Part shown: one piece after another, positions 1,561-16,198 of the stretch | Numbering within the stretch: the stretch's first letter is position 1 | Layout: each line of letters opens with the position of its first letter | From: Duganella zoogloeoides | GTDB taxonomy: Bacteria; Pseudomonadota; Gammaproteobacteria; Burkholderiales; Burkholderiaceae_D | Direction: 5' to 3' | Length of the DNA stretch: 64,000 nucleotides | Assembly (NCBI RefSeq): GCF_034479515.1 | Contig: NZ_CP140152.1 | Location: forward strand, 3,720,001-3,784,000 | The notes under the pieces: model-generated | Database searches by the model: none | What the model saw: only the letters and a program-made list of their open reading frames with translations | What the model was told of the DNA's origin: nothing | Made by a program: the position numbers and the translations under genes

Positions 1561-2535
1561 CTACACGTCAATAATATCCACGCACTTGCGCAACATTGCC
1601 ACCTTGTCCTGCCCCGCCGACGGCGTCCACTCATGGCTCACGAAACCGGTAAATCCCGCATCGGCGATCGTCGTCGCCAGGTGCCGGTAATTCAGCTCCT
1701 GGGTCTCGTCGATCTCGTGCCGGCCCGGCACACCGCCGGTGTGGAAGTGGCCGATCAGCGGCATGTGCTGGCGCAGGAAGTTGGTGAGGTTGCCGTCCAT
1801 GAGTTGGGCGTGGTACAGGTCCACCAGCAGCTTCACTGACGGCGAGCCCACCTGCGTTACCACGTCCAGCCCCCACGGCAGGTGGTCGAACATGCTGCCC
1901 GGCGGCGCGGGCGGGCCGCCGGTGTGGCCGGTGTTGATGTTCTCCATCACCAGCAGCACCTTGCGCGCTTCGGCGTGCGGCGCCACGCGGCGCAGGAAGC
2001 CAATCGCATTGCGCTTGCCCTCGTCGTAGCCGATGGCACCGCGTTCGCCGCAGGTGACGATGATGCTCGGGATGCCGTTGGCGGCCGCCGCGTCGATGCG
2101 TTCGCGCAGCGCTGCTTCGAAACCGCCGTCGCGGTCAGGCGTGCCGATGGCGTTCCAGCCGGTCGGGCCGGCCGGCGCACGGCCGGGGCGTGAGATGCCG
2201 CCGCCGTAATCGACGCGCAGCAGCGACACCATCAAGCCGTGCTGGCGTATCAACGGCCAGTCGGCCGGGTCGCTGGCGAAGTCGAGTCCCTCGATGCCCA
2301 GCGCGGCCGCCATGCGGCAGGTCTCGTCCATGGTGGCGCCGAACAGGTGCGGCGTAATGCCCTGCCGCAGCCGCCTGCGCGGCGTACCCGACGCTGCCAT
2401 CACCGGCATCCGTGCCTGCGCCTGACCCATGGCCGGGGCGCTGACCGCCGCCGTGGAAGCAGCCACAGCCGCCAGCGCTCCCACCGCGCCAAGCACGCGC
2501 CGGCGCATTGGTGAACCGAGTCGTCCGGACGTCAT
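1561..2535 (-). CDS. Sugar phosphate isomerase/epimerase-like TIM barrel with Tat-like leader
   Basis: 324 residues. An N-terminal 'MRRRVLGAVGAL' plus a long Ala-rich hydrophobic stretch ending in 'GQAQA' looks like a twin-arginine leader, so this family member is probably periplasmic. The barrel has the xylose-isomerase-like metal set: Glu in 'LLVMENINT', Asp and His in 'KLLVDLYHAQ', His in 'IGHFHTGG' and Glu in 'FVSHEWTP'. This resembles the hydroxypyruvate isomerase branch. Its ATG overlaps the stop of the upstream gene (ATGA), so translation is coupled. It is the last gene of the five-gene unit starting at 6519. Substrate is inferred from context to be an oxidised sugar. Confidence 0.85.
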   Translation of the reverse strand: MTSGRLGSPMRRRVLGAVGALAAVAASTAAVSAPAMGQAQARMPVMAASGTPRRRLRQGITPHLFGATMDETCRMAAALGIEGLDFASDPADWPLIRQHGLMVSLLRVDYGGGISRPGRAPAGPTGWNAIGTPDRDGGFEAALRERIDAAAANGIPSIIVTCGERGAIGYDEGKRNAIGFLRRVAPHAEARKVLLVMENINTGHTGGPPAPPGSMFDHLPWGLDVVTQVGSPSVKLLVDLYHAQLMDGNLTNFLRQHMPLIGHFHTGGVPGRHEIDETQELNYRHLATTIADAGFTGFVSHEWTPSAGQDKVAMLRKCVDIIDV

Positions 2536-3305
2536 GCCGCCAGCCCCAAAGTACGCCTGGTCAATGCCAGCGATTCCCCGGCGCCCACGGTCGGGAAGTA
2601 TTCAAGGCCGATCTCGCCCTGGTACCCCTTCGCCTTCAGCACCCGCATGACACTGGCCCAGTCGATACCGCCCGTACCCGGCTCGTGGCGGCCATCGGTG
2701 TCGGCCACCTGGACGTGGCCGATGTACGGCATGCGCTCGCCAATGGCCTGTTCCAGGTCTTCGCCCGTTTGCGCCGAGTGAAATACGTCCGCCAGCAGGC
2801 GCAACGCCGGGCTATCCACGGCAGCGACGATATCGAGGCCACGGCCGATGGTATCGACGAACATGCGCTGGCCGCCCACCACCATGTACACCGGCTCGAG
2901 CCACAGCATCGTGCCCGCCGCCTGCGCCATGGCTGCGGCGCGCTTGAGCACCGCCACCACGGCGTCGAACTGCTGCTGCACCGGCACGTCGGCGCGGGTA
3001 AAGCCGGAGGCCAGCACCATGGCGGCGCCGTTCAATTGACGCGCGACCGGAATCGCGTCGGCCACGGCTGCGAGCACCTGTTCGTGGTCGGCAGGATCGG
3101 CCAGGCTGCGGCGCGGCTCCACGCAGAAGCTGCGCACGCGCACGCCGGTGGCGTCGGCGGCGCGGGCGATGGCTTCGATCGGCTTTTCGCGCCACAGGTG
3201 GAATTCGACGCCGGTGACGCCGGCTTTGTGGGCGGCGTGGATGCGGGCCGGCAGGTCGTCGCCGGCTTCCGTGAACATCCATTCGATACAAGCTGCAAAT
3301 TTCAT
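2532..3305 (-). CDS. Hydroxypyruvate isomerase-family TIM barrel
   Basis: 257 residues, without leader. The sequence begins 'MKFAACIEWMFTE', as hydroxypyruvate isomerases do, and shows the expected metal/catalytic residues: Glu137 ('LWLEPVY'), Asp173 and His176 ('LLADVFHSAQ'), His197 ('YIGHVQVAD') and Glu235 ('IGLEYFP'). Proteins of this family include Hyi and OtnI (2-oxo-tetronate isomerase); the true substrate here is not known. The start at 3305 leaves one base after the stop of the MFS gene, and its own stop overlaps the next start, so it is tightly embedded in the operon 6519-1561. Confidence 0.87.
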   Translation of the reverse strand: MKFAACIEWMFTEAGDDLPARIHAAHKAGVTGVEFHLWREKPIEAIARAADATGVRVRSFCVEPRRSLADPADHEQVLAAVADAIPVARQLNGAAMVLASGFTRADVPVQQQFDAVVAVLKRAAAMAQAAGTMLWLEPVYMVVGGQRMFVDTIGRGLDIVAAVDSPALRLLADVFHSAQTGEDLEQAIGERMPYIGHVQVADTDGRHEPGTGGIDWASVMRVLKAKGYQGEIGLEYFPTVGAGESLALTRRTLGLAA

Positions 3306-3306
3306 C

Positions 3307-4545
3307 TCAATGATCCTTGGTATGGTTGAAGACCAGGACGACGGCAACGATCAGGCACAGGACGCCGATCACTGCCACGCTGGCCAGGAAACTGGGGGTG
3401 AACACACCGATCAGCGAGACCAGCGGCGGGCTGAGAAACTGCCCGAGGAAAAAGGCGCCGCCCCACAGGCCCATGCCGCGCCCGCGATGCTCGAAACCGT
3501 AATGCAGCAGCGCCCACGTCACCAGTGACGGCAGCAGCAAGCCGCCACCGACCTGTCCCAGCGCGTCGAGCGGCAACCCGAGCGCCAGGTTGGGCGCCAG
3601 CGCCACGCCGATATAGCTGACGCCATAAAACGCCAGGCAGGTAGCCAGCAGCATGCGCACCGACACCCCGGTCAGGCGCTTGAACAGGTAACCACCCAGC
3701 ACCGTGCCGAGGCTGGCCACCGTGGCCAGCACGCTGATACGCTCCGGCGACGCCACGCCCATGTCGTTGAAGATGCGGCCGTGCTGCACCGCCTGCACGA
3801 AGAACACCAGCGAGAACAGCACCGTCACGCCGCACACCAGCACGGTGGCGCGCCACGGGAACGGCGTGGCCGCCACGCCCGCTGCCGCCCGGGTATCGGC
3901 GGTGGAGCGCTGCGGCTCGCGGCAAAACGCCAGCGCCAGCGCGCACACCACGAAGCCGGCCAGGTACAGCAGGAACGGATAGCGCCAGTGCATGCCGGCC
4001 AAAAAGCCGCCCGACAGCAGGATGGCCGAACCGATCAAGGGAGCGAACATGTTCTGGTAGCCGAGCCACTTCTGCCGCTGCCCGCCCTCGAAGTAGTCGC
4101 CCATCAGCGCATTGCCCACGGTGAGGATGGCCGCTTCGGCCAGGCCCACCACCACCCGGCTGGCGACGATCAGCCACAGGTTGTCGAACAACATGGGGGC
4201 CAGGCCCAATAGCGAAAACGCCATCAACGCCACCAGCAGCAGCTTGCGCCGCCCCCAGCGGTCGGCAATCGCGCCGGCAAAGCCCGAGAACAGCGCCACG
4301 CACAGGGATGGCACCGTGATAATCATCGGCACCAGCAGTTCGAAATGCGGCACCGACGAGAACTGCCGGAACAGCTGCGGCAGGCCCGGCACCAGCGCGG
4401 CCAGCGCCAGGGTGGGCATGCTCATGACGGCCATCAGCGCGATACCTTGCGCGGCGCCGCCCGGGCGCGCGCGCGGTGCGCCGGTGAGGGCCGGATCGGT
4501 GGCAATGGAGGCGCCTGCGGGGCCTCCGGTCTGGATCGGATTCAC
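3307..4545 (-). CDS. MFS transporter of the catabolic island
   Basis: 412 residues with about twelve hydrophobic segments. The loop after TM2 reads 'GAIADRWGRRKLLL', the major-facilitator signature. There is a duplicated half-structure, and the N-terminus 'MNPIQTGGPAGAS' is cytoplasmic. It lies between two TIM-barrel isomerase-like genes with gaps of 18 and 1 bases, so it most likely brings the island's sugar or aglycone product across the inner membrane. Specificity cannot be read from sequence. Confidence 0.9.
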   Translation of the reverse strand: MNPIQTGGPAGASIATDPALTGAPRARPGGAAQGIALMAVMSMPTLALAALVPGLPQLFRQFSSVPHFELLVPMIITVPSLCVALFSGFAGAIADRWGRRKLLLVALMAFSLLGLAPMLFDNLWLIVASRVVVGLAEAAILTVGNALMGDYFEGGQRQKWLGYQNMFAPLIGSAILLSGGFLAGMHWRYPFLLYLAGFVVCALALAFCREPQRSTADTRAAAGVAATPFPWRATVLVCGVTVLFSLVFFVQAVQHGRIFNDMGVASPERISVLATVASLGTVLGGYLFKRLTGVSVRMLLATCLAFYGVSYIGVALAPNLALGLPLDALGQVGGGLLLPSLVTWALLHYGFEHRGRGMGLWGGAFFLGQFLSPPLVSLIGVFTPSFLASVAVIGVLCLIVAVVLVFNHTKDH

Positions 4546-4563
4546 GGTGCGTCCTTTCTGCGC

Positions 4564-5532
4564 TTAGCGCACGTGGCGATCCAGTACGTTCTGCTTGTAC
4601 CAGCTGTTGAGCATCATGCCGGTGGCGATCGGCTCCGGCCCCTTGTCGCTTTCGACGATGATCCAGCCGGCGTAACCGAGTTCGCCCATCGCCGCCAGCA
4701 GCGCCGGGAAGTCCACCAGACCGGTACCCATCTCGCCGAACCAGCGCGGGATTTCGCGTTCGCCGCCGGCCGCGATCAGCGCCCGCTCGGCGTTGGGCAA
4801 CTGGTACTCGCCCAGCGTGTCGATCGCCAGCGCATCCTTGAAGTGGAAGTGCAGCACCCGTAGGTGGAAGCGGCGGTACAGCGCCACCACGTCGTGGCCG
4901 GCGATGGTCAGTTCCGCCGTGTCGAACGCCAGTCCCACGGTGGCCGCATCGCACAGCGCCAGCAGCTGCTCGATTTCGTCGGCCGTGCGCAGTGCCGACA
5001 GCGCGTCGATGTGCAGCACGGTTTTCAGCCCCAGTGCCGCCGCCATGGCGCCGACCTGGTTCCAGCACTCGGCCGCTGCCGCCATTCGCTCGGCGTTCAA
5101 GGCGCCCTCCTTCCAGAACGACGGGAACGGCCGCACCACCAGCAATTCGCCGCCCAGTTGCGCCAGCATGGTGGCGTGGATTTTCGCCTGCGCGACGATG
5201 CGCGCATGGTCGGCGGGCTGGGTGCTCGACAGGCCGAAGTGCAGCTCCTCAAAGCTCATCAGGGTCGAATCGAAGAACGTGCTGACCACGCGCGTGATGC
5301 CCCAGTCGCGCAGCTTGAGGCGGAAGTGCTCGGGCGAGCCGAAGTTGATGTCGATGTTTTCCGGGCGCCCGATCGGGTCCCAGCGGCCGCTGCCGGCATT
5401 GAGTTCCACGGCCGAGAAGCCGCAGGCGGCGGTCACCTTCAGTGCGCGTTCGATTTCTTCCAGGCGCGCGAAGCTGGTGAAGCCGGCTTTCCACTGGTTG
5501 ACGGCGTAGCCCCATTTGATCTGTTGTGTCAT
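4564..5532 (-). CDS. Sugar phosphate isomerase/epimerase-like protein with altered metal site
   Basis: 322 residues, a TIM-barrel AP-endonuclease-2-type fold. It is a paralogue of the gene just upstream (5557-6519): both have 'GLVDFPALL'/'GGLVDFPAML' and 'YAGWIIVESDK'/'YEGWVGVEHDK'. Compared with that paralogue, the metal-site Glu is Asp176 ('TVLHIDALSA') and the Asp-x-x-x-His pair is 'FDTAELTIAG', with Leu208 in place of His. His228/His230 ('LHFHFKD') and the late Glu are kept. The change suggests a different or weakened metal centre. Second gene of the unit starting at 6519, 24 bases after the first. Confidence 0.85.
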   Translation of the reverse strand: MTQQIKWGYAVNQWKAGFTSFARLEEIERALKVTAACGFSAVELNAGSGRWDPIGRPENIDINFGSPEHFRLKLRDWGITRVVSTFFDSTLMSFEELHFGLSSTQPADHARIVAQAKIHATMLAQLGGELLVVRPFPSFWKEGALNAERMAAAAECWNQVGAMAAALGLKTVLHIDALSALRTADEIEQLLALCDAATVGLAFDTAELTIAGHDVVALYRRFHLRVLHFHFKDALAIDTLGEYQLPNAERALIAAGGEREIPRWFGEMGTGLVDFPALLAAMGELGYAGWIIVESDKGPEPIATGMMLNSWYKQNVLDRHVR

Positions 5533-5556
5533 GTTGTTCCTCGCTTAGCGGTAAAT

Positions 5557-6519
5557 TCAGGCGTAGATTTTTTTCAGGACGTGCTGGATGTACCACGCCG
5601 ACAGCGCCGTGCTTTCCGGGTAGTTGCCCCCTCCCACATCGGCCTTGTCGTGCTCCACGCCCACCCAGCCTTCGTAGCCGCACTCCTTCATGGCCTTGAG
5701 CATGGCCGGGAAGTCCACCAGGCCGCCCGGTACGCCCATCTCGTGGAACCAGCGCGGCGTGGTGGGCGCCATCACTTCGGCGTCGGGCTTGCGGCGGTAG
5801 TCGCCGGTCAGGTCCACGTCGAGCGTGTCCTTCATGTGGAAGCCGCCGCAGCGGTCGTGCAGTTTCAGGTACAGGTCCACCGGATCGACGCCGGCGATCA
5901 CGTGCTGCGCGGTGTCGCAGTAGAAGAACACATAGCGCGGGTCGGTGTATTCGTAGAACTTGCGCAGCTCCTCGGCGCTGCGGATACCGCAAAAGAACTC
6001 GTGGTGGCAGCAGGTTTTCACGCCGTATTCGAGCGTCATCTTGCCCACCCGGTTCCACAATTCGGCGCAGGCCTTGAGCTTGTCGTCGGTAACGGGTTCC
6101 ACGTCGTAGTACAGGCCTGCCGGCATGACGATGAAGTTTTCCACCCCCAGGCCCTGGCTCGAGCGCATGATGTGCTGGGCGTAGTTGAAGAGATGGTCGT
6201 GGGTGCTGCGGATGTGCGGCGCGCTCTGGCGCTCGTCGTACATCACCGCGTGGAACAGGCTCAGTACCTTGTCGATGCCGCGCTCCTGCATGAAGGAGCG
6301 GGCATTCTCCAGTGAGCCGAACAATTCGCGCAACGGTCCCAGGTGGAAGTCGAACGTCTCGATGGCCTCGTAGCCGATGGCCGAGATCTGCTTGAGGAAG
6401 GCGTCGAAGCGCTTGACCGACGTGTATTGCGAGAGCTGCCCTTGCGGGGTGTCGATGCGCCAGTGGTCCATATAGGCCCAGCGCAGTTTCGGAGCAGGTG
6501 CAGGTATAGATGAACTCAT
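5557..6519 (-). CDS. Sugar phosphate isomerase/epimerase-like protein, first gene of island unit C
   Basis: 320 residues. Xylose-isomerase-like barrel with a full predicted ligand set: Glu174 ('CHHEFFCGIR'), Asp202 and His206 ('YCDTAQHVIAG'), His228 ('GGFHMKDT') and Glu in 'WVGVEHDK'. Related proteins act as epimerases, isomerases or beta-eliminating lyases on keto-sugars. The ATG has AAGGA 7 bases upstream. A promoter with CATAAT and an adjoining AGAAT-type element precede it, so this is the head of a five-gene operon with a transporter and three further barrels. Confidence 0.86.
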   Translation of the reverse strand: MSSSIPAPAPKLRWAYMDHWRIDTPQGQLSQYTSVKRFDAFLKQISAIGYEAIETFDFHLGPLRELFGSLENARSFMQERGIDKVLSLFHAVMYDERQSAPHIRSTHDHLFNYAQHIMRSSQGLGVENFIVMPAGLYYDVEPVTDDKLKACAELWNRVGKMTLEYGVKTCCHHEFFCGIRSAEELRKFYEYTDPRYVFFYCDTAQHVIAGVDPVDLYLKLHDRCGGFHMKDTLDVDLTGDYRRKPDAEVMAPTTPRWFHEMGVPGGLVDFPAMLKAMKECGYEGWVGVEHDKADVGGGNYPESTALSAWYIQHVLKKIYA

Positions 6520-6534
6520 GCCGATTCCTTTTCT

Positions 6535-6555
6535 AGAATTAGAATGTTGATTATG
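6535..6555 (-). promoter_or_regulatory. Promoter -10 and putative operator of isomerase/MFS operon
   Basis: On the minus strand CATAAT (6550-6555) is followed after one base by the complement of AGAATTAGAATGTT (6535-6548). Similar 14-base elements follow the -10 of the other two island operons at 12036-12049 and 16266-16279 (10 of 14 positions shared with the last). No convincing -35 is visible. Placement just past the -10 is typical for a repressor; the TetR gene at 6618-7268 is the natural candidate. Confidence 0.4.
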
Positions 6556-6617
6556 TTTCAGGCGAATGCCCTGGATGCGCGACCTGGCACGCGGCGAACG
6601 CCGCGCACCACGCCCGG

Positions 6618-7268
6618 TCAGCGCTTGGGAGGCGTAAACAACAGGAATGCCAACATCATGTCACTGAGGTCGTCGAGCAGATCGTGCCAGTCGGCGTCCT
6701 CGCCCTTGCCGCCAAAGCTGTCCAGGCCCAGAAAACGCGCCTGGGTGGCATAAACCAGCAGCAGGCCCGAGTCGATGGCGCGGTCCGGCTGCGGGTGGCG
6801 GATCTCGTTGGCGCATGCCTTGAGCAGGCGGATGAATTTGGCGTGGTTCTCGTCGGCCGACTTTTTGCCGGCCGTGTTGATGGCCGCATCGGTGGGGCCG
6901 CGCAGCATGAACGAGCGCAGCACGCTGGCGTTCTCGCGCAGCAGGTTGCCCAGGCTTCGCACCACGGCCGGCACCACTTGCGCCAGCCCGGTGGCCTCGC
7001 GTTCGATGCGCGCCGCCTCGTCGGTGAATTGTTCGGCCAGGCGTTCGAGGAAGCGCACCTGCACCACGCGCAGCAGTTCGTCCTTGCCCGCCACCCGTCC
7101 GTACAGAGAACCGGTGGACACTTCCGAGCGCTCGCAGATGTCGGCCAGCGTGATCTGGTCGTATGCGCGCTCGCGCAGCAGGTCGATGGTGCCTTCGATG
7201 ATGCGCTCGAAAGACAGCCGGCTGCGGCCCTGTTTGGGCGCGCGGGCGTGGGCACTGAGTGGCGGCAT
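6618..7268 (-). CDS. TetR/AcrR-family regulator of the island
   Basis: 216 residues. The N-terminal helix-turn-helix is seen in 'TLADICERSEVSTGSLYGRV', preceded by 'IIEGTIDLLRERAYDQI' (helix 1) and followed by 'GKDELLRVV'. The C-terminal helical ligand domain is not assignable. The ATG at 7268 is preferred; the frame extends to a TTG at 7313 without a ribosome site. A TATAAT-like box lies upstream at about 7305. The gene sits between operons of the island and is transcribed with them, so it most likely senses an island substrate or intermediate. Confidence 0.85.
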   Translation of the reverse strand: MPPLSAHARAPKQGRSRLSFERIIEGTIDLLRERAYDQITLADICERSEVSTGSLYGRVAGKDELLRVVQVRFLERLAEQFTDEAARIEREATGLAQVVPAVVRSLGNLLRENASVLRSFMLRGPTDAAINTAGKKSADENHAKFIRLLKACANEIRHPQPDRAIDSGLLLVYATQARFLGLDSFGGKGEDADWHDLLDDLSDMMLAFLLFTPPKR

Positions 7269-7322
7269 GGGTGTCGTGGTCCGGATAAGAATGATGGGTC
7301 GGATTATAGCCAAAGGTCGCTG

Positions 7323-9026
7323 TTAGAGCCGCCCCGCTTTGAGCTCGGCCACCGCGAAGTGGACCGCCCGCACCGTCAGCGCCATATAGGTCAGCGACGG
7401 ATTGACGGTGCCGCTCGACGCCATGGCCGAACCGTCGGTGACGAACAGGTTGCGCACGCCGTGCACCTGGTTGTGGGCATTGAGCACCGAGGTGGCCGGG
7501 TCGTGGCCCATGCGCGCGCCGCCCATCTCGTGGATTGACGTGCCGGGCAGGCTGCGCACCGGCGCCAGCTGCACGCGCGCGGCGCCCGCCGCCTTGAGCA
7601 TGGCTTCCGCCTGCTTGCCGGCATCGACCGCCATGCGCTTTTCGTTGTCACCGTAAGCGACGTCGAAGCGCAGCTGCGGCAGGCCGAAGCCGCCCTTGTT
7701 GCTCTCGTCGAGCGTGACGCGGTTGTGCGCCTGCGGCAGCTGCTCGCCGAACGCGCCCAGGAACGCCACCCATTTGCCGGGACGGGCGATATTGTGTTTC
7801 ATCCCGGCGCCGAAATCGTCGGTGAGCGCAGCGGTATTGGTCCAGTCGTCGCGCATGGCGCCGCCCTGGAAGCCATAGCCGCGCGTGAAATCGGCGTCCG
7901 CATCCTGCCCGCCCACGTTACGGAAGCGCGGGATCAGGATGCCGGTGGCGCGGCGGCCCTTGTAGTTGCGGTCTTCGAATCCCGGCACCTCGCCGAATGC
8001 TGCCACGCCATGGTGATCGACCAGGTAGCGCCCCAGCACGTCGCTGTGGTTGCCGATGCCGTTCGGGTGCGCCGCGCTGCGCGACTGCAGCAGCACCTGC
8101 AGGCTGCCGTAGGTGGACGCGCACAGGAAAATTACCTTGGCCTTGAACGTGGTGCGCGCGCCGCTCTGCGCATCGATCACGCGCACGCCGGTGGCCTGCT
8201 TCGTGCGCGGATCGACATCGATCGCTTCGACCACGCTGTTGGTGCGGATGGTGAGGCGCCCGGTCTTTTGCGCAGCCGGCAAGGTGGAACTGAGCGAACT
8301 GAAATACGCGCCGAACGAGCAGCCCCGGTTGCAGATATTGCGGTTCTGGCACGGCCCGCGGCCGTCGTGCGGCACGGTGAGATTGGCCACGCGGCCGATG
8401 GTCACGCGGCGGTCCTGCCATTTCGCCTCGATGCGCTGCTTGAGCGCGCGCTCCAGCGCCGTCATTTCCATCGGCGGCAGGTAGTGCCCGTCCGGGAAGC
8501 TCTCCAGCCCTTCGGGCTGGCCGCTCACGCCGATGAATTTTTCCACGTGCGTGTACCACTTTTCCAGGTCGGCGTAGCGGATCGGCCAGTCGTTGCCATG
8601 GCCGTCGCGCGCATTGGCCTTGAAGTCGTCGTCGCCCCAGCGGTACGACTGCCGGCCCCAGGTCAGCGAACGCCCGCCCAGCACGTCGGTGCGGTGCCAG
8701 CGGAATGGCTTGGTTTCCTGGTACGGATTGTCGCGGTCGTTGATCCAGTAATGGCGGTTGGCCCAGCTGAAAGCGCCGCGCTCGATCTTGCTCTGCACCG
8801 GGTACTCGCGCGCAAACAGTTCGCGCTCGGGCAAGCCCTGGTTGGGCGCCTGCCATGGCGGCGTGAATTCGTGGATGTAGCCGGTTTGATGTTCGAGCGG
8901 CTTGCCGCGTTCGAGTATCAGCACCTTCAAACCCTTTTCGGTCAGTTCCTTGGCGGCCCAGCCGCCGGTGATGCCGGAGCCGATGACGATGGCGTCGAAT
9001 TGCGTGTTCTGCTGTTTCTGGTTCAT
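7323..9026 (-). CDS. GMC-family FAD oxidoreductase, putative glycoside/gluconate dehydrogenase large subunit
   Basis: 567 residues. The FAD-binding Rossmann motif is 'IVIGSGITGG' (about 14-23). A Cys cluster C226, C232, C236 ('CQNRNICNRGC') is in the place where the membrane-type FAD glucose and glucoside 3-dehydrogenases carry an iron-sulfur site. The GMC C-terminal signature has His499 ('SIHEMGGARMG') and Asn542 ('SSGTVNPSLTYMAL'), the expected catalytic pair. It has no leader; the partner encoded 16 bases upstream has a Tat leader and would carry it out of the cell. With isomerase-like barrels and a glucosidase nearby, oxidation of a sugar hydroxyl (possibly C3) is the likely reaction. Gluconate 2-dehydrogenase-like activity cannot be excluded. 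Confidence 0.88.
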   Translation of the reverse strand: MNQKQQNTQFDAIVIGSGITGGWAAKELTEKGLKVLILERGKPLEHQTGYIHEFTPPWQAPNQGLPERELFAREYPVQSKIERGAFSWANRHYWINDRDNPYQETKPFRWHRTDVLGGRSLTWGRQSYRWGDDDFKANARDGHGNDWPIRYADLEKWYTHVEKFIGVSGQPEGLESFPDGHYLPPMEMTALERALKQRIEAKWQDRRVTIGRVANLTVPHDGRGPCQNRNICNRGCSFGAYFSSLSSTLPAAQKTGRLTIRTNSVVEAIDVDPRTKQATGVRVIDAQSGARTTFKAKVIFLCASTYGSLQVLLQSRSAAHPNGIGNHSDVLGRYLVDHHGVAAFGEVPGFEDRNYKGRRATGILIPRFRNVGGQDADADFTRGYGFQGGAMRDDWTNTAALTDDFGAGMKHNIARPGKWVAFLGAFGEQLPQAHNRVTLDESNKGGFGLPQLRFDVAYGDNEKRMAVDAGKQAEAMLKAAGAARVQLAPVRSLPGTSIHEMGGARMGHDPATSVLNAHNQVHGVRNLFVTDGSAMASSGTVNPSLTYMALTVRAVHFAVAELKAGRL

Positions 9027-9042
9027 GTGCGGTCCCGTGCTT

Positions 9043-9708
9043 TCAGATGACGACCTGGTACGGCCAGGTCTTGATGTCCACATTCGATTCGAACTTGCCG
9101 GGCACCGGCATGTAGCGCAGTTCGCGGTTGCTGCCCACTTCGGACGTGAAGTAGCCGAGCACCACGAGGTCGCGCAGGCGCAGGTAGAACGGCGATTTGG
9201 GATCGAGGATGCGGTCGGTCAGCGAGAAGGTGCGCCCGCCATACGGACTGGCGGCGCGCAGCGCTTGCAGCACGTCGGCGCCCTGCTCCGCGCTGCACGC
9301 GGCAAAGGCGCGGCCGTGGCGCTGCTGCGCGCCGGCGTCGAGGTCCGCCAATCCCTTGCGGAAGAATGCCGCCTCGTCGGCCGTCATCCAGTTGGCCACC
9401 ATGGTGGCGACGAACTGCGGCACGCCGGCCTCGGTCGCACCCGGGGTGTCGGTGGCGGGGATGATCGTTTCGGCGGCCGCCGTGAGCGTGGCCAGCTCGG
9501 TGGCGGTCAAGGGCTGGGCGGTGCTGGCGGCGGCGGGTGCGCCAGCGGCTTTCAGGGCTTGCGCCGCCGCCGGCGCGGTCCACACGGCAGCGAGCGTGGT
9601 GGCTGCCAGCAGCGCGCCCAGCACGTCGCGCCGCGAAACGCCGCGCTCTTCATGCGCCGCGTGGTGCTGGCCGGCGTTACGGTCGAAATGCACTTTGGTG
9701 ATGTTCAT
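9043..9708 (-). CDS. Gluconate 2-dehydrogenase subunit 3-family protein (Tat-exported small subunit)
   Basis: 221 residues. The N-terminus has 'VSRRDVLGALLAATTLAA', a twin-arginine leader with cleavage expected after 'AAAQA'. The mature part contains the subunit-3 landmarks: 'ETIIPATDTPGATEAGVPQF' (the metal/FAD-proximal loop of the family) and a C-terminal 'LGYFTSEVG' then 'YMPVPGKFE'. In characterised two- or three-subunit dehydrogenases this subunit carries the flavoprotein through the Tat pathway. It lies between the TonB receptor (14-base gap) and the GMC gene (16-base gap) in one operon. No cytochrome subunit is in the operon; the nearest c-type cytochrome is at 16410. Confidence 0.87.
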   Translation of the reverse strand: MNITKVHFDRNAGQHHAAHEERGVSRRDVLGALLAATTLAAVWTAPAAAQALKAAGAPAAASTAQPLTATELATLTAAAETIIPATDTPGATEAGVPQFVATMVANWMTADEAAFFRKGLADLDAGAQQRHGRAFAACSAEQGADVLQALRAASPYGGRTFSLTDRILDPKSPFYLRLRDLVVLGYFTSEVGSNRELRYMPVPGKFESNVDIKTWPYQVVI

Positions 9709-9722
9709 GGTTCGCCTCTCTG

Positions 9723-11942
9723 CTAGAACTGGGTGCCGGCACGCAGGCCGATGGTGCGCGGTGCGCCGATGCCGAAGCCGCCCGGCACCAGGCTGTCGAT
9801 GGTGATGGTGTTTTCCAGGTTGCGGGCAAACGCCTGCACGTAAAACTTTTGCGCGGCCGCCGTGTAGGTCACGCTGATGTCGCTCTTGCGGTACGACGGC
9901 TGGCGGTAGCGCGAGGCGGACGCCGAATCGCTGAGGAAGTAGGCGCCGTTCAGGCGCGTGCCCACCTTGGCCACGACACTGGCGCCGCTGTCGAACATGA
10001 ACGTGTGGGCATAACCGAGGCTGGCGTTGTAGGCCGGCGCGCGGTCGATCTGCTGGCCCGACCAGTCGGCCACGCCATCGGGCGTGTACGACTTGAACTT
10101 GCCGTCGGCAGTAGCCAGCGAGAAGTTGATGCGGTCGTCCGCCGTGGCCTGCCAGGTGCCTTCCACTTCCACGCCGTCGATGGTGGCGTTGGAGGCGTTG
10201 GTGGTGAGCGCGCCGCAGGTGGCTGCCGTCGAACCGGTGCACACCACGGAGGTCAGCTGCATGTCCTTGTAGTCGTAGCGGAACACGGCTGCGCCCAGGC
10301 GCAGGCGGTTGTCGAGAAAGCGGCCCTTGACGCCCGCTTCCAGCGACGTGATGTTCTCGGGCAGGTAGGCCGAGCCGCTGGTGTCGTTGAAACCGCCCGC
10401 CTTGTAGCCAGTGGACAGGCTGGCATACACCATCACGGCCGGGCGCAGGTCGTAATCAAAGGCCAGCCGGTAGTTGGACTTGCTGCTTTCCACGTGGGCG
10501 GTGTAGCCGGGACCGGTGAGGCTGCCGCTGAGCGGATCGAAGCCCGATTTTTCATCGCGCGTGGTGCGCGCCCCGAACGTCACGCGCAGCCGCGGATCGA
10601 CGCGGTACGTCAGCTGGCCGAACGCCGCCTTCGAGCGGCTGTGGACCGTGGGCGTGAACGGCAGCACGATCAGCGGACCGGGCGTTTGCGTATTGAAGGT
10701 GGACGAGCGGAAGATGTCCTCGTCGTAGTGGTACAGCCCCGCTACCCACGACAGGCGCGGCGCGCCGGCGGAATTGAACCGCAGCTCGTGCGTGCGCTGG
10801 GTGGAATCGCCAAACATCGGGTTGTACATCGGGAAGCCGAAATAGGTGCCGTTGTTTAGTTCATCGAGTTTCGATTCCAGGCGGGCGAACTGCCAGGTCA
10901 CATCCACCGCGTCGCCCAGCGTGGTTTTCAGTTCCGAACGCAGCGACGTGGCCACGTCGTCCTTGTAGCTGCCGGTGTCCGTGTAGCGCGCGGCGGCAGT
11001 GCGCTGCGTGTCCGCGCCCCGGTCCACGTACACGGGATGGGCCAGGTTGTTGCCGCTGGCGATAGGCGTGCCGATAAAGAAATTCGTCAGCGGCACCGAG
11101 CTGGCGCCGTTGCCGCCAGCCTTGCTGCGTTCGGCCGTCAGCAGCCAGGTGGTCGTCGGCGAGAAGGTCAGCAGCGCGTGCACGCGGGCGGCGGTGTCAT
11201 CCTGGTCGGTCAGGCCCACGGTGTTGGGACCGGGTTTCAAATAGCTGTCGTGACGCACCTTGACGGCGGCCGCGCGCAGCGCCAGCGTGTCGTTGACGGG
11301 GATGTTGACCATGCCCTCGACGCGGCGGGCGCCGAAGTCGCCAATCTCGGTATCGATGCGGCCCTCGAGCTTTTTGCCCGGCTTGTTGGTGATCAGGTTG
11401 ATGGCGCCGGCGGTGGCGTTGCGGCCGTACAGCGTACCTTGCGGGCCGCGCAGCACTTCGATGCGTTCGAGATCGAGGAAGCTGCCCAGTTGCGCCTCGC
11501 TGCGGCCGATGTAGGCGCCATCGACGTTGAAGGCGGTGGACGAATCGCCCTTCTCGCTGGTGTCCAGGCTGACCACGCCGCGTATGGCGACCTGCAGTTT
11601 GCCGGAGTCGGTGGAGATCTGCACATTGGGCGCCAGCTCGGTCAGCGCCACGGCGTTGGTGGCGCCGCTCTGGCGCAATTCCTCGCCGCCCAGCACCGAC
11701 AAGGCCAATGGTGTCTTGGACGCCGGCTGCGCGGTTTTCTGCGCAGTGACGATCACTTCGATCAGCGGGTTGTCCTGGGACGGTTGCTGAGCGGCGGCGC
11801 TGCCGCAGGCGGCCAGCAGGATGGCGCCGAGGCTGGCGATGCCGACACGGTGGTGAACATGGTTGTGGGCATGGTGGTCAGCATGAGGCGGGCGCGCAGC
11901 AACAGCGCGCAAGCCGGGGCTTGCATCGATTTCAAGGGGCAC
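9723..11942 (-). CDS. TonB-dependent outer-membrane receptor of the island
   Basis: 739 residues from a GTG at 11942, which has CGGAGA 6-7 bases before it; an ATG at 11993 in the same frame has no ribosome site. After a His-rich start and a hydrophobic leader ('GIASLGAILLAACGSAAAQ') comes the TonB box region 'IEVIVTAQK', a plug domain ('VEVLRGPQGTLYGRNATAGA') and a beta barrel ending in 'GLRAGTQF' with the terminal Phe. The plug motifs are those of the nutrient-type receptors common in sphingomonads and Massilia, not siderophore receptors. First gene of the receptor-subunit3-GMC operon, so it probably imports the island's glycoside. Confidence 0.88.
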   Translation of the reverse strand: MPLEIDASPGLRAVAARPPHADHHAHNHVHHRVGIASLGAILLAACGSAAAQQPSQDNPLIEVIVTAQKTAQPASKTPLALSVLGGEELRQSGATNAVALTELAPNVQISTDSGKLQVAIRGVVSLDTSEKGDSSTAFNVDGAYIGRSEAQLGSFLDLERIEVLRGPQGTLYGRNATAGAINLITNKPGKKLEGRIDTEIGDFGARRVEGMVNIPVNDTLALRAAAVKVRHDSYLKPGPNTVGLTDQDDTAARVHALLTFSPTTTWLLTAERSKAGGNGASSVPLTNFFIGTPIASGNNLAHPVYVDRGADTQRTAAARYTDTGSYKDDVATSLRSELKTTLGDAVDVTWQFARLESKLDELNNGTYFGFPMYNPMFGDSTQRTHELRFNSAGAPRLSWVAGLYHYDEDIFRSSTFNTQTPGPLIVLPFTPTVHSRSKAAFGQLTYRVDPRLRVTFGARTTRDEKSGFDPLSGSLTGPGYTAHVESSKSNYRLAFDYDLRPAVMVYASLSTGYKAGGFNDTSGSAYLPENITSLEAGVKGRFLDNRLRLGAAVFRYDYKDMQLTSVVCTGSTAATCGALTTNASNATIDGVEVEGTWQATADDRINFSLATADGKFKSYTPDGVADWSGQQIDRAPAYNASLGYAHTFMFDSGASVVAKVGTRLNGAYFLSDSASASRYRQPSYRKSDISVTYTAAAQKFYVQAFARNLENTITIDSLVPGGFGIGAPRTIGLRAGTQF

Positions 11943-12035
11943 TTTTTGTCTCCGACGTTTGGACTTTTGCAGTCTCGTTCTGGGCCGCGCCATCGGGTGG
12001 CGCGTGTCACTTGCAAATCAGGATAGCACGAATTT

Positions 12036-12062
12036 AGAACCGTAATTCCAGTTTTTATTATG
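12036..12062 (-). promoter_or_regulatory. Promoter -10 and putative operator of the TonB receptor operon
   Basis: On the minus strand CATAAT (12057-12062) is followed after seven bases by an element whose plus-strand form is AGAACCGTAATTCC (12036-12049). It shares 10 of 14 ungapped positions with the palindromic element at 16266-16279. The -10 overlaps the stop codon of the FMN reductase gene. Confidence 0.4.
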
Positions 12063-12663
12063 CTGTTGTAACCGGGCTGCGCACACCCACCACCTGCTCT
12101 GCCAGCAGGCGCAAACTGCTGGTCACCTGCGGCTCCAGGCACTGGCCGTCACCATCGAACAGGCGCACGCCGGCGGTATTGAGGGTGACGCCCATCGGCG
12201 TGGGCCAGCCACGCAGCGCGTGCACGATCGAGCGCATCGCGCCCAGCGTGGTGTTGCAGCCCTGCCAGCCGGCAGCCGTGACGATGCAGCCCACCGGCAT
12301 GCCGTCGAGGTACACGCGCTCGTCGGCGCGCAGGTCTTCCAGCAGGTCGATGGCGTTTTTCACCAGGCCCGACACGCCGCCGTGGTAGCCGGGCGAGGCG
12401 AAGATCACGGCGTCGGCCCGGCGCACCGCCTCCACCAGCGCGCGCTGGCCTTCGGTGCGTTCCGGCTGCTCGGGGTTGTAGCCGGGCAGCGCGGCCAGCG
12501 CGGCGCCGCCGAACAACTCGGTGCGCGCGCCCAGTTCGGCCGCGTGGGCCAGCGCCACCCGCAGCGCGGTCTCGGTGCTGGAACCCGGGCGCGTGGTGCC
12601 GCCGATGCCGACGATGTAGGGGGTGCGGCCGTTGGCGCGGGCGTTGTTGGTGTAGTGGTTCAT
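12058..12663 (-). CDS. NAD(P)H-dependent FMN reductase
   Basis: 201 residues of flavodoxin-like fold. 'IVGIGGTTRPGSSTETALR' is the FMN-phosphate loop, and 'DAVIFASPGYHGGVSGLVKNA' is the flavin-contact motif of the SsuE/ArsH-type reductases. 'VTAAGWQGCNTTLGAMR' is the third conserved loop. It is the last gene of the unit that begins with a luciferase-like monooxygenase at 16198, with a gap of 24 bases from the glucosidase, so it most plausibly supplies FMNH2 to that oxygenase. Confidence 0.88.
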   Translation of the reverse strand: MNHYTNNARANGRTPYIVGIGGTTRPGSSTETALRVALAHAAELGARTELFGGAALAALPGYNPEQPERTEGQRALVEAVRRADAVIFASPGYHGGVSGLVKNAIDLLEDLRADERVYLDGMPVGCIVTAAGWQGCNTTLGAMRSIVHALRGWPTPMGVTLNTAGVRLFDGDGQCLEPQVTSSLRLLAEQVVGVRSPVTTA

Positions 12664-12687
12664 GGTGTTCGTCTCCGTTTATATTAT

Positions 12688-15060
12688 TTAGATGGTGATG
12701 GTGAATGGCAGGTCGATGCTGGAGCGCCCGACCAGCAGCCGCACCGGTCCGGCCACGCCGGTCCAGCCGCCATCCCACACCTGCATGCGGCGCGCGGCAA
12801 TCGCAATGCGCAGTTCCTGCTCCTCGCCGGCGGCCAGCGTGGCCTTGGCAAAGCCCACCAGGGTCAGCTCCGGCTGGTCGCGGTACACCTGCACCACTTC
12901 GGCGCCTGCGCGGAGGCTGGTGTTGCGCAGCTTGACGGTGACCTCCCAACCGTCCGCCATTTCGTGCAGCTGCGGTGCATCGAGTTCAAAGCTGGCGTAG
13001 CCGAAGCCGGCGCCAAAGGCCTGGCGCGGCGCCACACCGTTGGCGGCCAGGCCGCGATAGCCCACGCGCACGCCATCGCTGTAATGCAGGTCGCCGTTGG
13101 CGTCCGGCTGCAGGGAGAGCGCCGGGTAGTCGGCGTCGGCAGCGGCGATGGTGACCGGCAGGCGGCCGCCCGGTTCGCGGTCGCCTGCCAACACCTGCGC
13201 CAGCGCCGCGCCGAATTCCTGCCCCGGGTACCAGCAGTGCAGCACCGCCTGGGCCATTCCTTCCCAGCGAGTGTCGAACGCGTGGCCCACGTTGGTGACG
13301 ATGACGGTGTTCGGATTGGCGGCGCATACCTGCTCGATCAGCGCGATCTGTTCGCTCGGCAGGTGGGTGTCGGGACGGTCCTTGCTTTCCACGCTGGCGT
13401 CCGATGTTTCGCCCACCATCAGGATCACGGCGTCGGCCTGCTGCGCCGCTGCCACGGCCTGCGCCATCATCGACTGCGCGCTGCCCGGGCCGCGCACGCC
13501 GTACCACAGGCCCTGGCACCGCGCCGCCGCGTAGCGCAGCTCCGCCACCACGGCCACCGTTTGCCCGGCTGCCAGTTGTACGGTCACGCTGTCGGCATCA
13601 CCGCTTTTCAGGCGGCCCATCACGTCGCCGGGCGCCAGCTGCTCGTCGCGCCGGAAGACTTCCTGGCCATCGACCAGCAGCCGCAGCGCGCCGGTGCCGC
13701 CCACGTAGAACAGGTGGCCGCCGGTGTCGGAAGCCGTGTAGCTGCCGCTGGCGCGGGTGGCGGCGTCGCGCTGCAAGGCGCCCGCCTCGTGCACACCGTG
13801 GAACCAGGTGAGCGAGTTGGTGTCGCGCGTTTCGCTCACCAGCGGTGCGCCGTCGCAGTCCTGGTTGTCGAAGTAATCAATGGTCATGCCGCGCACGCAG
13901 CCGTCGCCGAGGTCGCGCGCCGGCCGCGCCGCCATGCGCGGCAGCTTCGGTTGCGGATCGACGCCGGGCGTGTAGCCGGTAATCGCTGCGCCGAAGCGCT
14001 GGCGCAGCGCCTCGATCGGCAGCACGGCATCGGGTTTCACTGCGATCTTGGCAAAGGTGCCGCCCTGGAAACACGGTGCGCTGGCGTTGGGGCCGATCAC
14101 GGCGATGCGCGGGCAGCGCGCCGGGTCCAGCGGCAAAATCCCGCCTTCGTTGCGCACCAGGGTAAAGCCGGCGGCGGCGGCTTGCACCAGCAGGTCGGCT
14201 GCCGCGCTGTCGTTCATCGGCGTGCCCTTGGCGCCGCCGAACCGGCGCGCGGTCTTCGCCACGCGGGCGGCAGCGTCGGCCAGCCGGGCCGCCGGTACCG
14301 CGCCCTGCTCCACCGCGGCGGCGCTGTGCGCGCCCAGGAAGCGCGCCGGTCCCGGCATTTCCAGGTCCAGGCCGCCCTGCAGCGAACCGACCGTGGAATG
14401 GGTGCCGAACCAGTCACTCATGAACACGCCGGGAAAGCCCCATTCGTTCTTGGCGATCGCCGTGACAACCGGCGCCGCTTCCGCGCACCAGCTGCCATTG
14501 ACCTTGTTGTAGGCGGTAAGCATGCCGGCGCAGCGGGCTTCAGCCGCCAGCTCGAACGGCAGCAAATACACTTCGCGCAGCGTGCGCTCATCGACCACGG
14601 CGTTCATCTGGTCGCGCGCGGTTTCGCTGTCGTTGCACACCAGGTGCTTGGCCACGGCGCCGGTGCCGGTGGACTGACAGCCGGCTATCCACGCCGCGCC
14701 CAGCTGGCCGCACAGCAGCGGGTCTTCGGAAAAATATTCAAAGGCGCGCCCGGCCAGCGGGCTGCGCGCCAGGTTCAGGTTGGGCGCCAGCATCAGATCG
14801 ACGCCCCGGCGGATCGCCTCGCCGCCCACCAGTTGCCCGACCTGCTGCACCAGCGCCGGGTCCCAGCTGGCGCCCAGCGCCATTGGCGCGGGCGTGAGCA
14901 GCGAGACGTCGCGCTCATCGACACGGGCGCCGGCCACGCCCATCGGGCCGTCCGCCATCGACAGCGACGCGATATCCGCCGCCGGCACTGCCGCCGTGGT
15001 CCACATCGTGGCGCCGGCGGTCAGCATGGCCATGTCGGCCACGCTCAAATGTTGTTCCAT
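12688..15060 (-). CDS. Glycoside hydrolase family 3 beta-glucosidase
   Basis: 790 residues. The GH3 N-domain shows 'NLNLARSPLAGRAFEYFSED' (catalytic-pocket Arg, Phe and acidic residues), 'AKHLVCNDSETARDQMNAV' and the nucleophile motif 'GFPGVFMSDWFG' (Asp). A PA14-like insert (about 'RGMTIDYFDNQDCDGAP' to 'SVTVQLAAGQ') splits the second domain, as in many bacterial GH3 enzymes; the fibronectin-III-like tail ends in 'RSSIDLPFTITI'. No signal peptide is visible, so it is probably cytoplasmic. The ATG at 15060 has GGAGGAGA 6 bases upstream. It should hydrolyse O-glycosides entering through the island transporter. Confidence 0.93.
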   Translation of the reverse strand: MEQHLSVADMAMLTAGATMWTTAAVPAADIASLSMADGPMGVAGARVDERDVSLLTPAPMALGASWDPALVQQVGQLVGGEAIRRGVDLMLAPNLNLARSPLAGRAFEYFSEDPLLCGQLGAAWIAGCQSTGTGAVAKHLVCNDSETARDQMNAVVDERTLREVYLLPFELAAEARCAGMLTAYNKVNGSWCAEAAPVVTAIAKNEWGFPGVFMSDWFGTHSTVGSLQGGLDLEMPGPARFLGAHSAAAVEQGAVPAARLADAAARVAKTARRFGGAKGTPMNDSAAADLLVQAAAAGFTLVRNEGGILPLDPARCPRIAVIGPNASAPCFQGGTFAKIAVKPDAVLPIEALRQRFGAAITGYTPGVDPQPKLPRMAARPARDLGDGCVRGMTIDYFDNQDCDGAPLVSETRDTNSLTWFHGVHEAGALQRDAATRASGSYTASDTGGHLFYVGGTGALRLLVDGQEVFRRDEQLAPGDVMGRLKSGDADSVTVQLAAGQTVAVVAELRYAAARCQGLWYGVRGPGSAQSMMAQAVAAAQQADAVILMVGETSDASVESKDRPDTHLPSEQIALIEQVCAANPNTVIVTNVGHAFDTRWEGMAQAVLHCWYPGQEFGAALAQVLAGDREPGGRLPVTIAAADADYPALSLQPDANGDLHYSDGVRVGYRGLAANGVAPRQAFGAGFGYASFELDAPQLHEMADGWEVTVKLRNTSLRAGAEVVQVYRDQPELTLVGFAKATLAAGEEQELRIAIAARRMQVWDGGWTGVAGPVRLLVGRSSIDLPFTITI

Positions 15061-15103
15061 GCTGGTCTCCTCCAGTGGGCGGCCCTGGTACGGGCGGCCA
15101 TCA

Positions 15104-16198
15104 TTATTTGAATGCGGGTACCACGTGCTTGGCCAGCAGTTCCAGGGTCTGGTTGGCATAGGCCAGGCGCTTGGCGGTCAGCGGTCCGGTCGTGGTGCCG
15201 CACAGGATGTTGCCGATGCCGATATCCTGGTACGCGCGCAGCTTGTTGATGACGGTTTCCGGACTGCCGTACAGGCACCAGGTGGCCATCCAGTCTTCGG
15301 TCAGCGCATGGCCGGTGCGGTCGGTCTTCTTGTTGGCGTCGTCGGCTTCGGCCTTGGCGTTGAAGGCTGCTTCGCGGTCGATCGCTTCCTGGTAGTCGGT
15401 GAGGATTTCCTGCACTTCGCGGTGCGCCTGCTCGTCGGTGGGCGCCAGGTGCACGCACTGGTAGCTATGCGTGGTCCACGACAGCGCGTCGGCCACCGTT
15501 GCGTCGCTGTGGCCGGCCGCCAGCAGCTGGCGGTGGTAATTGCCGAAGTGCTTGGTAACGTGGCTGAGCGGATCGGTACCGCCGATTTTCGGTGGCGTAA
15601 ATGCCGGGATGAAGGTGGGCCAGCCGTTGACGGCGGCGCGCGTGGCGCTGCTCTCTTTCAGGGCCACCGGCATCAGGCGCGCATGTTTCGGGCCATAGGA
15701 CGTGGGCGCGATCCGCTGCAGCACGCGGCCCTGGTGGAAGCCGGTCAGCTCCACCGGCGCGTCGTCGATCTGCTTGGCCCACAGCGCTTCGGCCGCTTCC
15801 AGGTTTTCTTCGGCGATGCGGCCGGCGTCCTTGTAGTTGACGCCAAAGCCGATCATCTCCTCCGGCGTGGTGCCCGAGCCGATGCCGACCAGCAGCTTGC
15901 CACGGGTGAGATGGTCGAGGATGTTGATGCGCTCGACAAAGCGCACTGGGTGATGCAGCGGCACCGACGTCACCGAGAAGCCAAAGTGCATGTCCGGCAG
16001 CTTGGCGGCCAGGTACGACGCGAACATATAGCTGTCGCTGGCCACCGGCATGTAGCCGTTGAAGTGGTGGTCGGGCATGAAGATGGCGTCGAAGCCGAGT
16101 TTGCCGGCCAGCAGTGCGTGCTGCTCCAGGTCCACGATCAGCTGTTTGTCGGCGTCCGCGCTCATGGTGCGGGCATTGAGGAAGACGGAGAAGCGCAT
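15104..16198 (-). CDS. LLM-class flavin-dependent oxidoreductase (luciferase-like monooxygenase)
   Basis: 364 residues. Bacterial luciferase-type barrel: 'MRFSVFLNARTM' start, 'FDAIFMPDHHFNGYMP', 'SVPLHHPVRFVERINILDHL', 'GKLLVGIGSGTTPEEMIGFG' and, near the end, 'GSPETVINKLRAYQDIGIGN'. These are the standard F420/FMN-dependent LLM motifs. First gene of the unit LLM-GH3-FMN reductase, led by a good promoter (16284-16312). A flavin reductase in the same unit indicates an FMNH2-using monooxygenase, perhaps acting on a released aglycone. Confidence 0.9.
   Translation of the reverse strand: MRFSVFLNARTMSADADKQLIVDLEQHALLAGKLGFDAIFMPDHHFNGYMPVASDSYMFASYLAAKLPDMHFGFSVTSVPLHHPVRFVERINILDHLTRGKLLVGIGSGTTPEEMIGFGVNYKDAGRIAEENLEAAEALWAKQIDDAPVELTGFHQGRVLQRIAPTSYGPKHARLMPVALKESSATRAAVNGWPTFIPAFTPPKIGGTDPLSHVTKHFGNYHRQLLAAGHSDATVADALSWTTHSYQCVHLAPTDEQAHREVQEILTDYQEAIDREAAFNAKAEADDANKKTDRTGHALTEDWMATWCLYGSPETVINKLRAYQDIGIGNILCGTTTGPLTAKRLAYANQTLELLAKHVVPAFK

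Follow-up and report, generated by a model that had tools for sequence, protein, structure and literature searches.

The window analysed here, 64,000 nucleotides of Duganella zoogloeoides (bases 3720001–3784000 of NZ_CP140152.1, the single 6.32-Mb contig of its genome), contains about half, the right-hand half, of a ~31-kb locus that probably directs the catabolism of aryl C-glucosides, most likely of the flavonoid type, by oxidation and elimination. The part inside the window is a run of 12 minus-strand genes (window positions 1561–16198) that begins with a luciferase-like monooxygenase (LLM) and includes a GMC flavoprotein and four isomerase-like barrels. The locus extends ~14.6 kb beyond the left window edge, with a plus-strand MFS–LysR–LacI block dividing its two minus-strand halves. 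We favor the C-glycoside reading because a C-glycoside deglycosidase (CGD) pair, a hydratase-like barrel, and a Gfo/Idh/MocA reductase (Gfo) adjoin the window and because CGD is linked to LLM across related genomes. Plants commonly contain C-glycosyl flavonoids, which resist ordinary glycosidases. A preliminary description of the window had listed thirteen minus-strand genes in three operons; its coordinates and gene families were borne out by Pfam and NCBIfam searches, but we found 12 genes and no sign of three operons, as, with the gene starts chosen here, every intergenic gap in the run is <100 bp (the largest, 98 bp, lies between the TetR gene and barrel 1).

When the genome was scanned with Pfam for the barrel family, two further barrels turned up ~5–7 kb left of the window. 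CGD beta matched PF19906, the C-glycoside deglycosidase beta subunit family, at 117.5 bits (cut-off 27.6) and the DUF6379 chain 8umc at 78 bits. The top PDB match of CGD alpha was 8qvc (403 bits), followed by entries for DgpC1, PuCGD, EuCGD, and AgCGD2 (118–140 bits). The metal-binding residues of AgCGD2 (E147, D179, H269, K271, and E305) and its catalytic base are given in PMC8563793. Mapped by constant spacing (−4, then −10) rather than by direct alignment, and with the start methionine left out of the numbering, these metal ligands correspond to E143, D175, H259, K261, and E295 of CGD alpha, and the AgCGD2 base H149 and its partner E307 correspond to H145 and E297. Each of these residues is present in all 60 aligned rows, save H259 (51 H, 9 Q). 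The left-flank pair most likely functions as a CGD that would cleave 3-keto C-glucosides and, rather than the window barrels to which elimination had earlier been assigned, is the most likely eliminase. The hydratase-like barrel is a close, nearly full-length relative of the solved 2-hydroxy-3-keto-glucal hydratase AtHYD (8ro4; 548.5 bits, E 7.6e-164, query residues 23–370).

To place the locus among its relatives, we searched 120 genomes of the Duganella/Pseudoduganella/Massilia group (the D. zoogloeoides genome included; LLM at E ≤ 1e-80, barrel 1 at E ≤ 1e-60), 249 genomes from a second family, and a phylum sample of 398. In the 120 relatives, LLM was present in 11 genomes, CGD beta in 12, and barrel 1 in 11; all 11 LLM genomes also carried CGD beta and barrel 1, the additional CGD beta genome being G001. 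This co-occurrence of LLM and CGD beta gave a Fisher value of 1e-14, uncorrected for kinship; Fisher values here assume independence between related genomes and serve only as description. In all 11 genomes, the two genes lie on the same contig with starts 14–32 kb apart, and the order LLM, GH3, FMN reductase, Gluconate_2-dh3 subunit, GMC, barrels 1 and 2, MFS, barrel 3 is kept, so the grouping is not a chance one. Locus maps, drawn for these 11 loci and also for G001 and another G007 locus, showed these genes, TetR (behind barrel 3 in G044), the second MFS transporter (MFS2), CGD alpha, CGD beta, and the second TonB receptor (TonB2) in 11 of 11 loci. Barrel 4 was present in 10 (on the opposite strand in G003, displaced in G058), EmrB and LysR in 10, the first TonB receptor in 8, and LacI, the hydratase, Gfo, and the VOC protein in 7 each.

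We take the family sampled by the 249 genomes to be the sphingomonads, because its matches coincide in position with named loci (for example, G607 with Sphingomonas prati). LLM was found there in 8 genomes and CGD beta in 15, with all 8 LLM genomes holding CGD beta (Fisher 2e-11, again uncorrected for kinship) and 7 of the 8 carrying both on one contig within ~17 kb. In the eighth, G540, the distance between them is ~39 kb on the assumption that its single contig is circular, and LLM was matched only in part and as two fragments, possibly a broken gene (G540:C1:3330000-3349999), with FMN reductase, TonB, GH3, Gfo, hydratase, GMC, VOC, hydrolase, and FAH genes as neighbors. LLM was found in 3 genomes of the phylum sample, our own counted. 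An alignment scan of genome contigs gave a set of named LLM loci, the best 80 of 133 confirmed relatives, of which 10 are from Oxalobacteraceae and 70 from other groups, mainly sphingomonads plus Azospirillum/Nitrospirillum/Niveispirillum, a Hyphomonadaceae metagenome-assembled genome, and Pseudooceanicola; these loci overlap the sampled genomes (e.g. L005 with G059, L036 with G607) and are not separate evidence. Within the DNA examined around LLM, GH3 was found in 62 of the 70, FMN reductase in 54, either CGD subunit in 51, GMC in 28, and the hydrolase in 24, and 60 carried CGD, the hydratase, or Gfo; 6 of the 10 that lacked all three end at contig ends. CGD was found in 0 of the 10 Oxalobacteraceae named loci, whose 10-kb flanks are too short to reach it; the longer maps show it. 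In 49 of the 80 loci, the first labelled gene on the LLM strand with a start <400 bp downstream encodes the FMN reductase. In a tree of 87 LLM sequences rooted on G434, Oxalobacteraceae form a single clade (support 1.0) nested among alphaproteobacterial LLMs, which suggests a single transfer, a reading that depends on the G434 root.

The candidate first enzyme is the GMC flavoprotein with its Gluconate_2-dh3 (PF13618) subunit. The combination of a GMC catalytic chain with a Gluconate_2-dh3 chain that bears a twin-arginine translocation (Tat) leader presumably defines the glycoside 3-dehydrogenase family, and this expected architecture is present. The Tat-exported two-subunit dehydrogenase of the preliminary description was thus recovered as to its families and leader, and the leader-bearing subunit would carry the GMC subunit out. 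A script matched the SRRDVL motif of the subunit in 8 of 10 other loci; the motif is visible in G007 and was not seen for G022. For one 56% relative (P0116), the source gives the name glucoside 3-dehydrogenase. In G001, a Gluconate_2-dh3 subunit and a GMC protein (59% identity to ours) stand between the hydratase and Gfo within the CGD run. This region of G001 (L112; G001:C33:325000-344999) holds CGD alpha, CGD beta, hydratase, subunit, GMC, and Gfo contiguously on one strand; LLM was not found there, and a second, divergent CGD alpha and FAH are also present. Five further genomes (G022, G003, G044, G020, and G058) have a 53% GMC relative 5–7 kb from a 65–69% hydratase copy, and G030 and G034 have an extra hydratase with no adjoining GMC match. 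We take GlycDH/TAT to be the same kind of GMC/subunit-3 pair. According to PMC10628242, the Rhizobium GlycDH/TAT enzyme oxidizes puerarin, nothofagin, orientin, vitexin, and isovitexin at C3, and GlycDH with its TAT-pathway protein used ferricyanide at least 100-fold better than oxygen. By analogy, the GMC pair of our locus would oxidize the glycoside at C3.

The LLM is followed in the run by its likely FMN-reductase partner, and the far end of the left flank carries a set of aromatic-type genes. The closest fold to LLM is RslO1, with luciferase tied; RslO1 is an aromatic-polyketide enzyme. Among solved structures, the hydrolase is matched best by the DHPON hydrolase 2jbw (76.9 bits); lower-scoring matches include an Ayg1-like chain (57.9) and AntI (32.1). 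The VOC protein matched 3b59 (57.2 bits) and BphC (36.9 bits) weakly, and its H154, H213, and E264 fall at type-I extradiol-like places if, as we assume, the His/His/Glu ligand rule applies. Of 24 alphaproteobacterial LLM loci that include the hydrolase, 16 have it on the same strand as LLM and VOC, with no FAD monooxygenase of the fde/ifc type in the stretch examined. In G434, LLM stands beside the aromatic set, and neither CGD beta nor the FAD monooxygenase was found. Our own locus has a glyoxalase-type dioxygenase and a DHPON-hydrolase-like hydrolase of the fde/ifc kind (a type-level likeness to FdeC/IfcB); matches to the FdeE/IfcA-type FAD monooxygenase and to a cupin (one G015 cupin query, E 1e-8) were not found in it. 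These comparisons make the aglycone the probable target of the LLM/FMN-reductase pair. The fuller proposal, that it is a new two-component luciferase-family aglycone oxygenase standing in place of the fde/ifc FAD monooxygenase in a locus that spans uptake to ring cleavage, is tentative, and we hold it at slightly less than even confidence. A clean exchange of the FAD monooxygenase for LLM was also considered and is weakened by an FAD monooxygenase elsewhere in our genome and by loci with both oxygenases; the grouping used for the Fisher value in this comparison, LLM or CGD present in the cluster, was settled once the maps had been inspected. A second LLM copy with an FMN reductase occurs in G007 (C2 near 3.78 Mb), with relatives of the hydrolase, VOC, Rieske, cyclase, FAH, GH3, and MFS2 proteins nearby; an FAD monooxygenase match was not found there.

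From the observed gene content, conserved order, co-occurrence, and CGD metal-site residues, we infer the following reactions, the compartment of each step, and the substrate class. TonB receptors would take up the glycoside, and the Tat-exported GMC/subunit-3 enzyme would oxidize C3 of its glucose in the periplasm. MFS carriers would import the 3-keto-glycoside, and CGD alpha–beta, through a metal-assisted beta-elimination, would break the C–C bond. The AtHYD-like barrel would add water to 2-hydroxy-3-keto-glucal to give 3-keto-glucose, which Gfo could reduce to glucose, and GH3, likely as an O-glucosidase, would remove O-linked glucose. LLM and FMN reductase would oxygenate the aglycone, and the product may be broken down by the extradiol-type VOC protein, the DHPON-hydrolase-like hydrolase, the cyclase, and FAH. 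The oxidation–elimination scheme of the preliminary description is well supported by CGD, the AtHYD-like hydratase, Gfo, and the G001 run, with two changes: the likely target is C-glycosides rather than glycosides generally, and the eliminase is most likely CGD.

Several observations weigh against parts of this pathway. The nearest solved relatives of the GMC protein are a fructose dehydrogenase and an FAD glucose dehydrogenase, so its C3 regiochemistry rests on context. The hydratase and Gfo are not beside CGD in 4 of the 11 locus maps; each of these 4 genomes has a 67–69% hydratase copy elsewhere. The hydrolase is in just 4 of the 11 maps, and is found somewhere in all 12 CGD beta genomes and in G434; a search of 15 other relatives found it in 2. 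According to PMC11069340, disruption of the DHPON-like hydrolase gene of the ifc cluster did not abolish daidzein degradation. Four named LLM loci (L046, L066, L073, and L075) have full flanks yet lack CGD, hydratase, and Gfo. G434 carries LLM, FMN reductase, and GH3 with no CGD beta found; LLM is therefore not strictly tied to C-glycosides. Both oxygenases are nearby in 7 of the 24 alphaproteobacterial loci and in 2 of 20 hydrolase loci in relatives, and our own genome encodes an FdeE-like FAD monooxygenase, 78% identical to those of relatives, with a Rieske protein (G000:C1:3140486); no VOC or hydrolase match was found in the surrounding 20 kb. The earlier placement of the oxygenase on the aglycone thus has comparative support in the 16 of 24 loci and in G434, and is weakened by this second monooxygenase and by the loci with both.

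The strongest competitor concerns the LLM pair, which could act on a sugar-derived product rather than on the aglycone; sulfoquinovose monooxygenase is a precedent, and CGD is commoner than the aromatic hydrolase in the 70 non-Oxalobacteraceae loci (51 compared to 24). We judge this rather unlikely in view of the shared strand of LLM, VOC, and hydrolase in most hydrolase loci, the aromatic neighbors of LLM in G434, where CGD beta was not found, and the RslO1-like fold, tied with luciferase. An improbable alternative to C-glycoside specificity is a broad pathway of 3-oxidation and elimination for plant O-glucosides, in which barrels 1, 2, or 4 would be lyases and CGD would act on O-glycosides. 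Retention of the CGD pair in 11 of 11 loci argues against it, as do the five genomes in which a hydratase–GMC pair, which might serve O-glycosides, lies away from the only CGD beta match. That the halves of the locus are unrelated catabolic clusters brought together by chance would agree with the opposite-strand block between them and with the extra intervening genes in G024 and G030. The linkage of the halves, which occur together in 11 of 11 relatives, largely excludes this explanation, and the proximity of LLM and CGD beta in 7 of 8 sphingomonad-family genomes speaks against it as well; we regard it as highly implausible.

The version closest to the preliminary description, in which at least two of the four window barrels would be the eliminases, also seems improbable to us. 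Its account of four isomerase-like barrels, one with a Tat-like leader, was upheld: all four belong to PF01261, and the RR leader of barrel 4 recurs in several orthologues. In favor of barrel eliminases, the fold of barrel 1 is common to known lyases and the hydratase, and barrel 1 is 90–96% identical across ten other genomes. IolE was the closest match in the barrel 1 fold search, which did not decide between a lyase, including the AL1/BT1 type of 3-keto-glucopyranoside-1,2-lyase, a hydratase, and IolE. AtOGE (8BVK) was not among the 50 matches listed, an absence that carries no weight. Scores fell below the equivalog cut-offs for IolE (TIGR04379; 65.6 and 81.9 bits for barrels 1 and 2, cut-off 290) and below the cut-offs for hydroxypyruvate isomerase (TIGR03234; 137.4 bits for barrel 3, cut-off 353.45) and 2-oxo-tetronate isomerase (NF043033; 91.5 bits for barrel 4, cut-off 325). 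With CGD as the preferred eliminase, barrels 1–4 would most likely carry out other keto-sugar conversions or O-glycoside cleavage. In Sphingomonas mali (L078), relatives of barrels 1 and 2 (47% and 41%) adjoin LLM, FMN reductase, GH3, VOC, and hydrolase genes.

CGD, GMC dehydrogenases, and hydratases are already known. The CarABC, PurABC, and AgCGD systems of soil actinobacteria likewise proceed by C3 oxidation and CGD alpha–beta cleavage with homologous CGD subunits (PMC8563793, PMC12724307). The first Car/Pur enzyme is an oxygen-requiring FAD oxidase (PurA, with CarA similar; PMC12724307), whereas our locus has a Tat-leader GMC/subunit-3 pair and, unlike Car/Pur, adds in one locus a hydratase, Gfo, TonB uptake, and genes for the aglycone; the latter paper reports PurABC homologues in Pseudomonadota. 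The Agrobacterium GlycDH-TAT/AtOGE/AtHYD/Gfo operon (PMC10628242) shares with our locus the oxidoreductase with a TAT-pathway protein, the hydratase, Gfo, and the logic of oxidation, elimination, hydration, and reduction; our eliminase is instead CGD, unrelated in sequence to AtOGE by that account, and our locus adds aromatic genes and LLM. The fde cluster (Herbaspirillum, naringenin; PMC11303751) and the ifc cluster (Variovorax, isoflavone; PMC11069340) share by type the glyoxalase-type dioxygenase and the DHPON-hydrolase-like hydrolase. In relatives such a VOC/hydrolase-type pair has an FAD monooxygenase and, in most cases, a cupin as neighbors; our locus differs from fde/ifc in having LLM and FMN reductase. 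The gut dgp/dfg operons have CGD alpha–beta in common with our locus, as the PDB matches show, and begin, according to a published abstract, with the Gfo/Idh/MocA enzyme DgpA in gut bacteria rather than with a GMC pair. To our knowledge, those operons lack both LLM and the GMC pair.

New here are the whole-pathway locus in two proteobacterial classes (beta and alpha), the coupling of CGD to LLM, and the Tat-leader GMC pair as the likely first step, with LLM the novel part of an otherwise known pathway. Among the matches listed, the C-glycoside systems in the literature searched are from actinobacteria, Agrobacterium, and the gut, and aerobic Gram-negative use that includes the aglycone is little described. 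No announcement of a CGD–LLM link was found in the titles and abstract openings of the open-licence matches listed, which is not proof of absence; both terms co-occur in a review on salt-adapted microbes (PMC12387818). The conserved locus offers a putative new oxygenase type, a putatively exported C3-dehydrogenase for C-glycosides, and several unassigned barrels, and it makes such use amenable to study by single-gene deletion.

Table. Genes of the locus. Window positions are given unless marked contig; contig position equals L001 position + 3702000. Gene starts, in the window and in the flank, were picked by the author from candidate starts, and some are uncertain.
Gene	Position	Strand	Evidence or remark
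LLM, luciferase-like, probably FMNH2-dependent two-component monooxygenase	15104..16198	-	First in run
GH3 glycosidase with PA14 insert	12688..15060	-	PF00933/PF01915/PF07691; ribosome-binding-site-like stretch at start 15060
NADPH-dependent FMN reductase, likely LLM partner	12058..12663	-	PF03358, 90.2 bits
TonB-dependent receptor	9723..11993	-	PF00593, PF07715; 50% identity to second receptor left of window
Gluconate_2-dh3 subunit with Tat leader	9043..9708	-	PF13618, 122.2 bits; Tat motif VSRRDVLGALLA
GMC flavoprotein, putative glycoside 3-dehydrogenase	7323..9083	-	PF05199/PF00732; fructose/glucose dehydrogenase structures; G001 context
TetR regulator	6618..7313	-	PF00440, 32.8 bits
Barrel 1, IolE-like TIM barrel, putative keto-sugar lyase/dehydratase type	5557..6519	-	
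Barrel 2, IolE-like TIM barrel	4564..5532	-	PF01261, 82.2 bits; 32% identity to barrel 1
MFS transporter	3307..4545	-	PF07690, 124.6 bits
Barrel 3, hydroxypyruvate-isomerase-like	2532..3305	-	PF01261, 136 bits; TIGR03234, 137.4 bits (cut-off 353.45)
Barrel 4, isomerase-like with Tat-like leader, putatively exported	1561..2535	-	PF01261, 75.2 bits
EmrB-type MFS, 3' part; gene begins left of window	1..333	+	Opposite-strand MFS–LysR–LacI block
LysR	contig 3717929-3718843	+	
LacI	contig 3716864-3717913	+	
MFS2	contig 3715458-3716768	-	
CGD alpha	contig 3714439-3715428	-	
CGD beta	contig 3714042-3714419	-	
Hydratase-like barrel	contig 3712966-3714033	-	
Gfo/Idh/MocA reductase	contig 3711787-3712950	-	
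TonB2, second TonB receptor	contig 3709335-3711584	-	
Alpha/beta hydrolase, DHPON-hydrolase-like	contig 3708166-3709326	-	
VOC protein, extradiol-type	contig 3707197-3708150	-	
Cyclase, PF04199	contig 3706377-3707195	-	
FAH	contig ~3705400-3706386	-	

The LysR protein was considered as a NodD-type flavonoid sensor and dropped; its top NCBIfam match was BsrA (182.6 bits, cut-off 480). A promoter and terminator scan gave 4 promoter-like sites compared to 2.3 expected, 2 of them upstream of LLM, and was not used as evidence. Divergent from LLM lies a small mono-haem cytochrome c (CMACH; window 16410-16730, plus strand), which was considered as the recipient of electrons from the GMC pair and not counted as part of the locus, its query having matched only our own genome, 1 of the 11 loci. 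Further to the right, the plus strand at window 21888-23869 appears to encode an alpha/beta hydrolase of the RsbQ/KAI2 type and, overlapping it, a histidine kinase of the PAS type.

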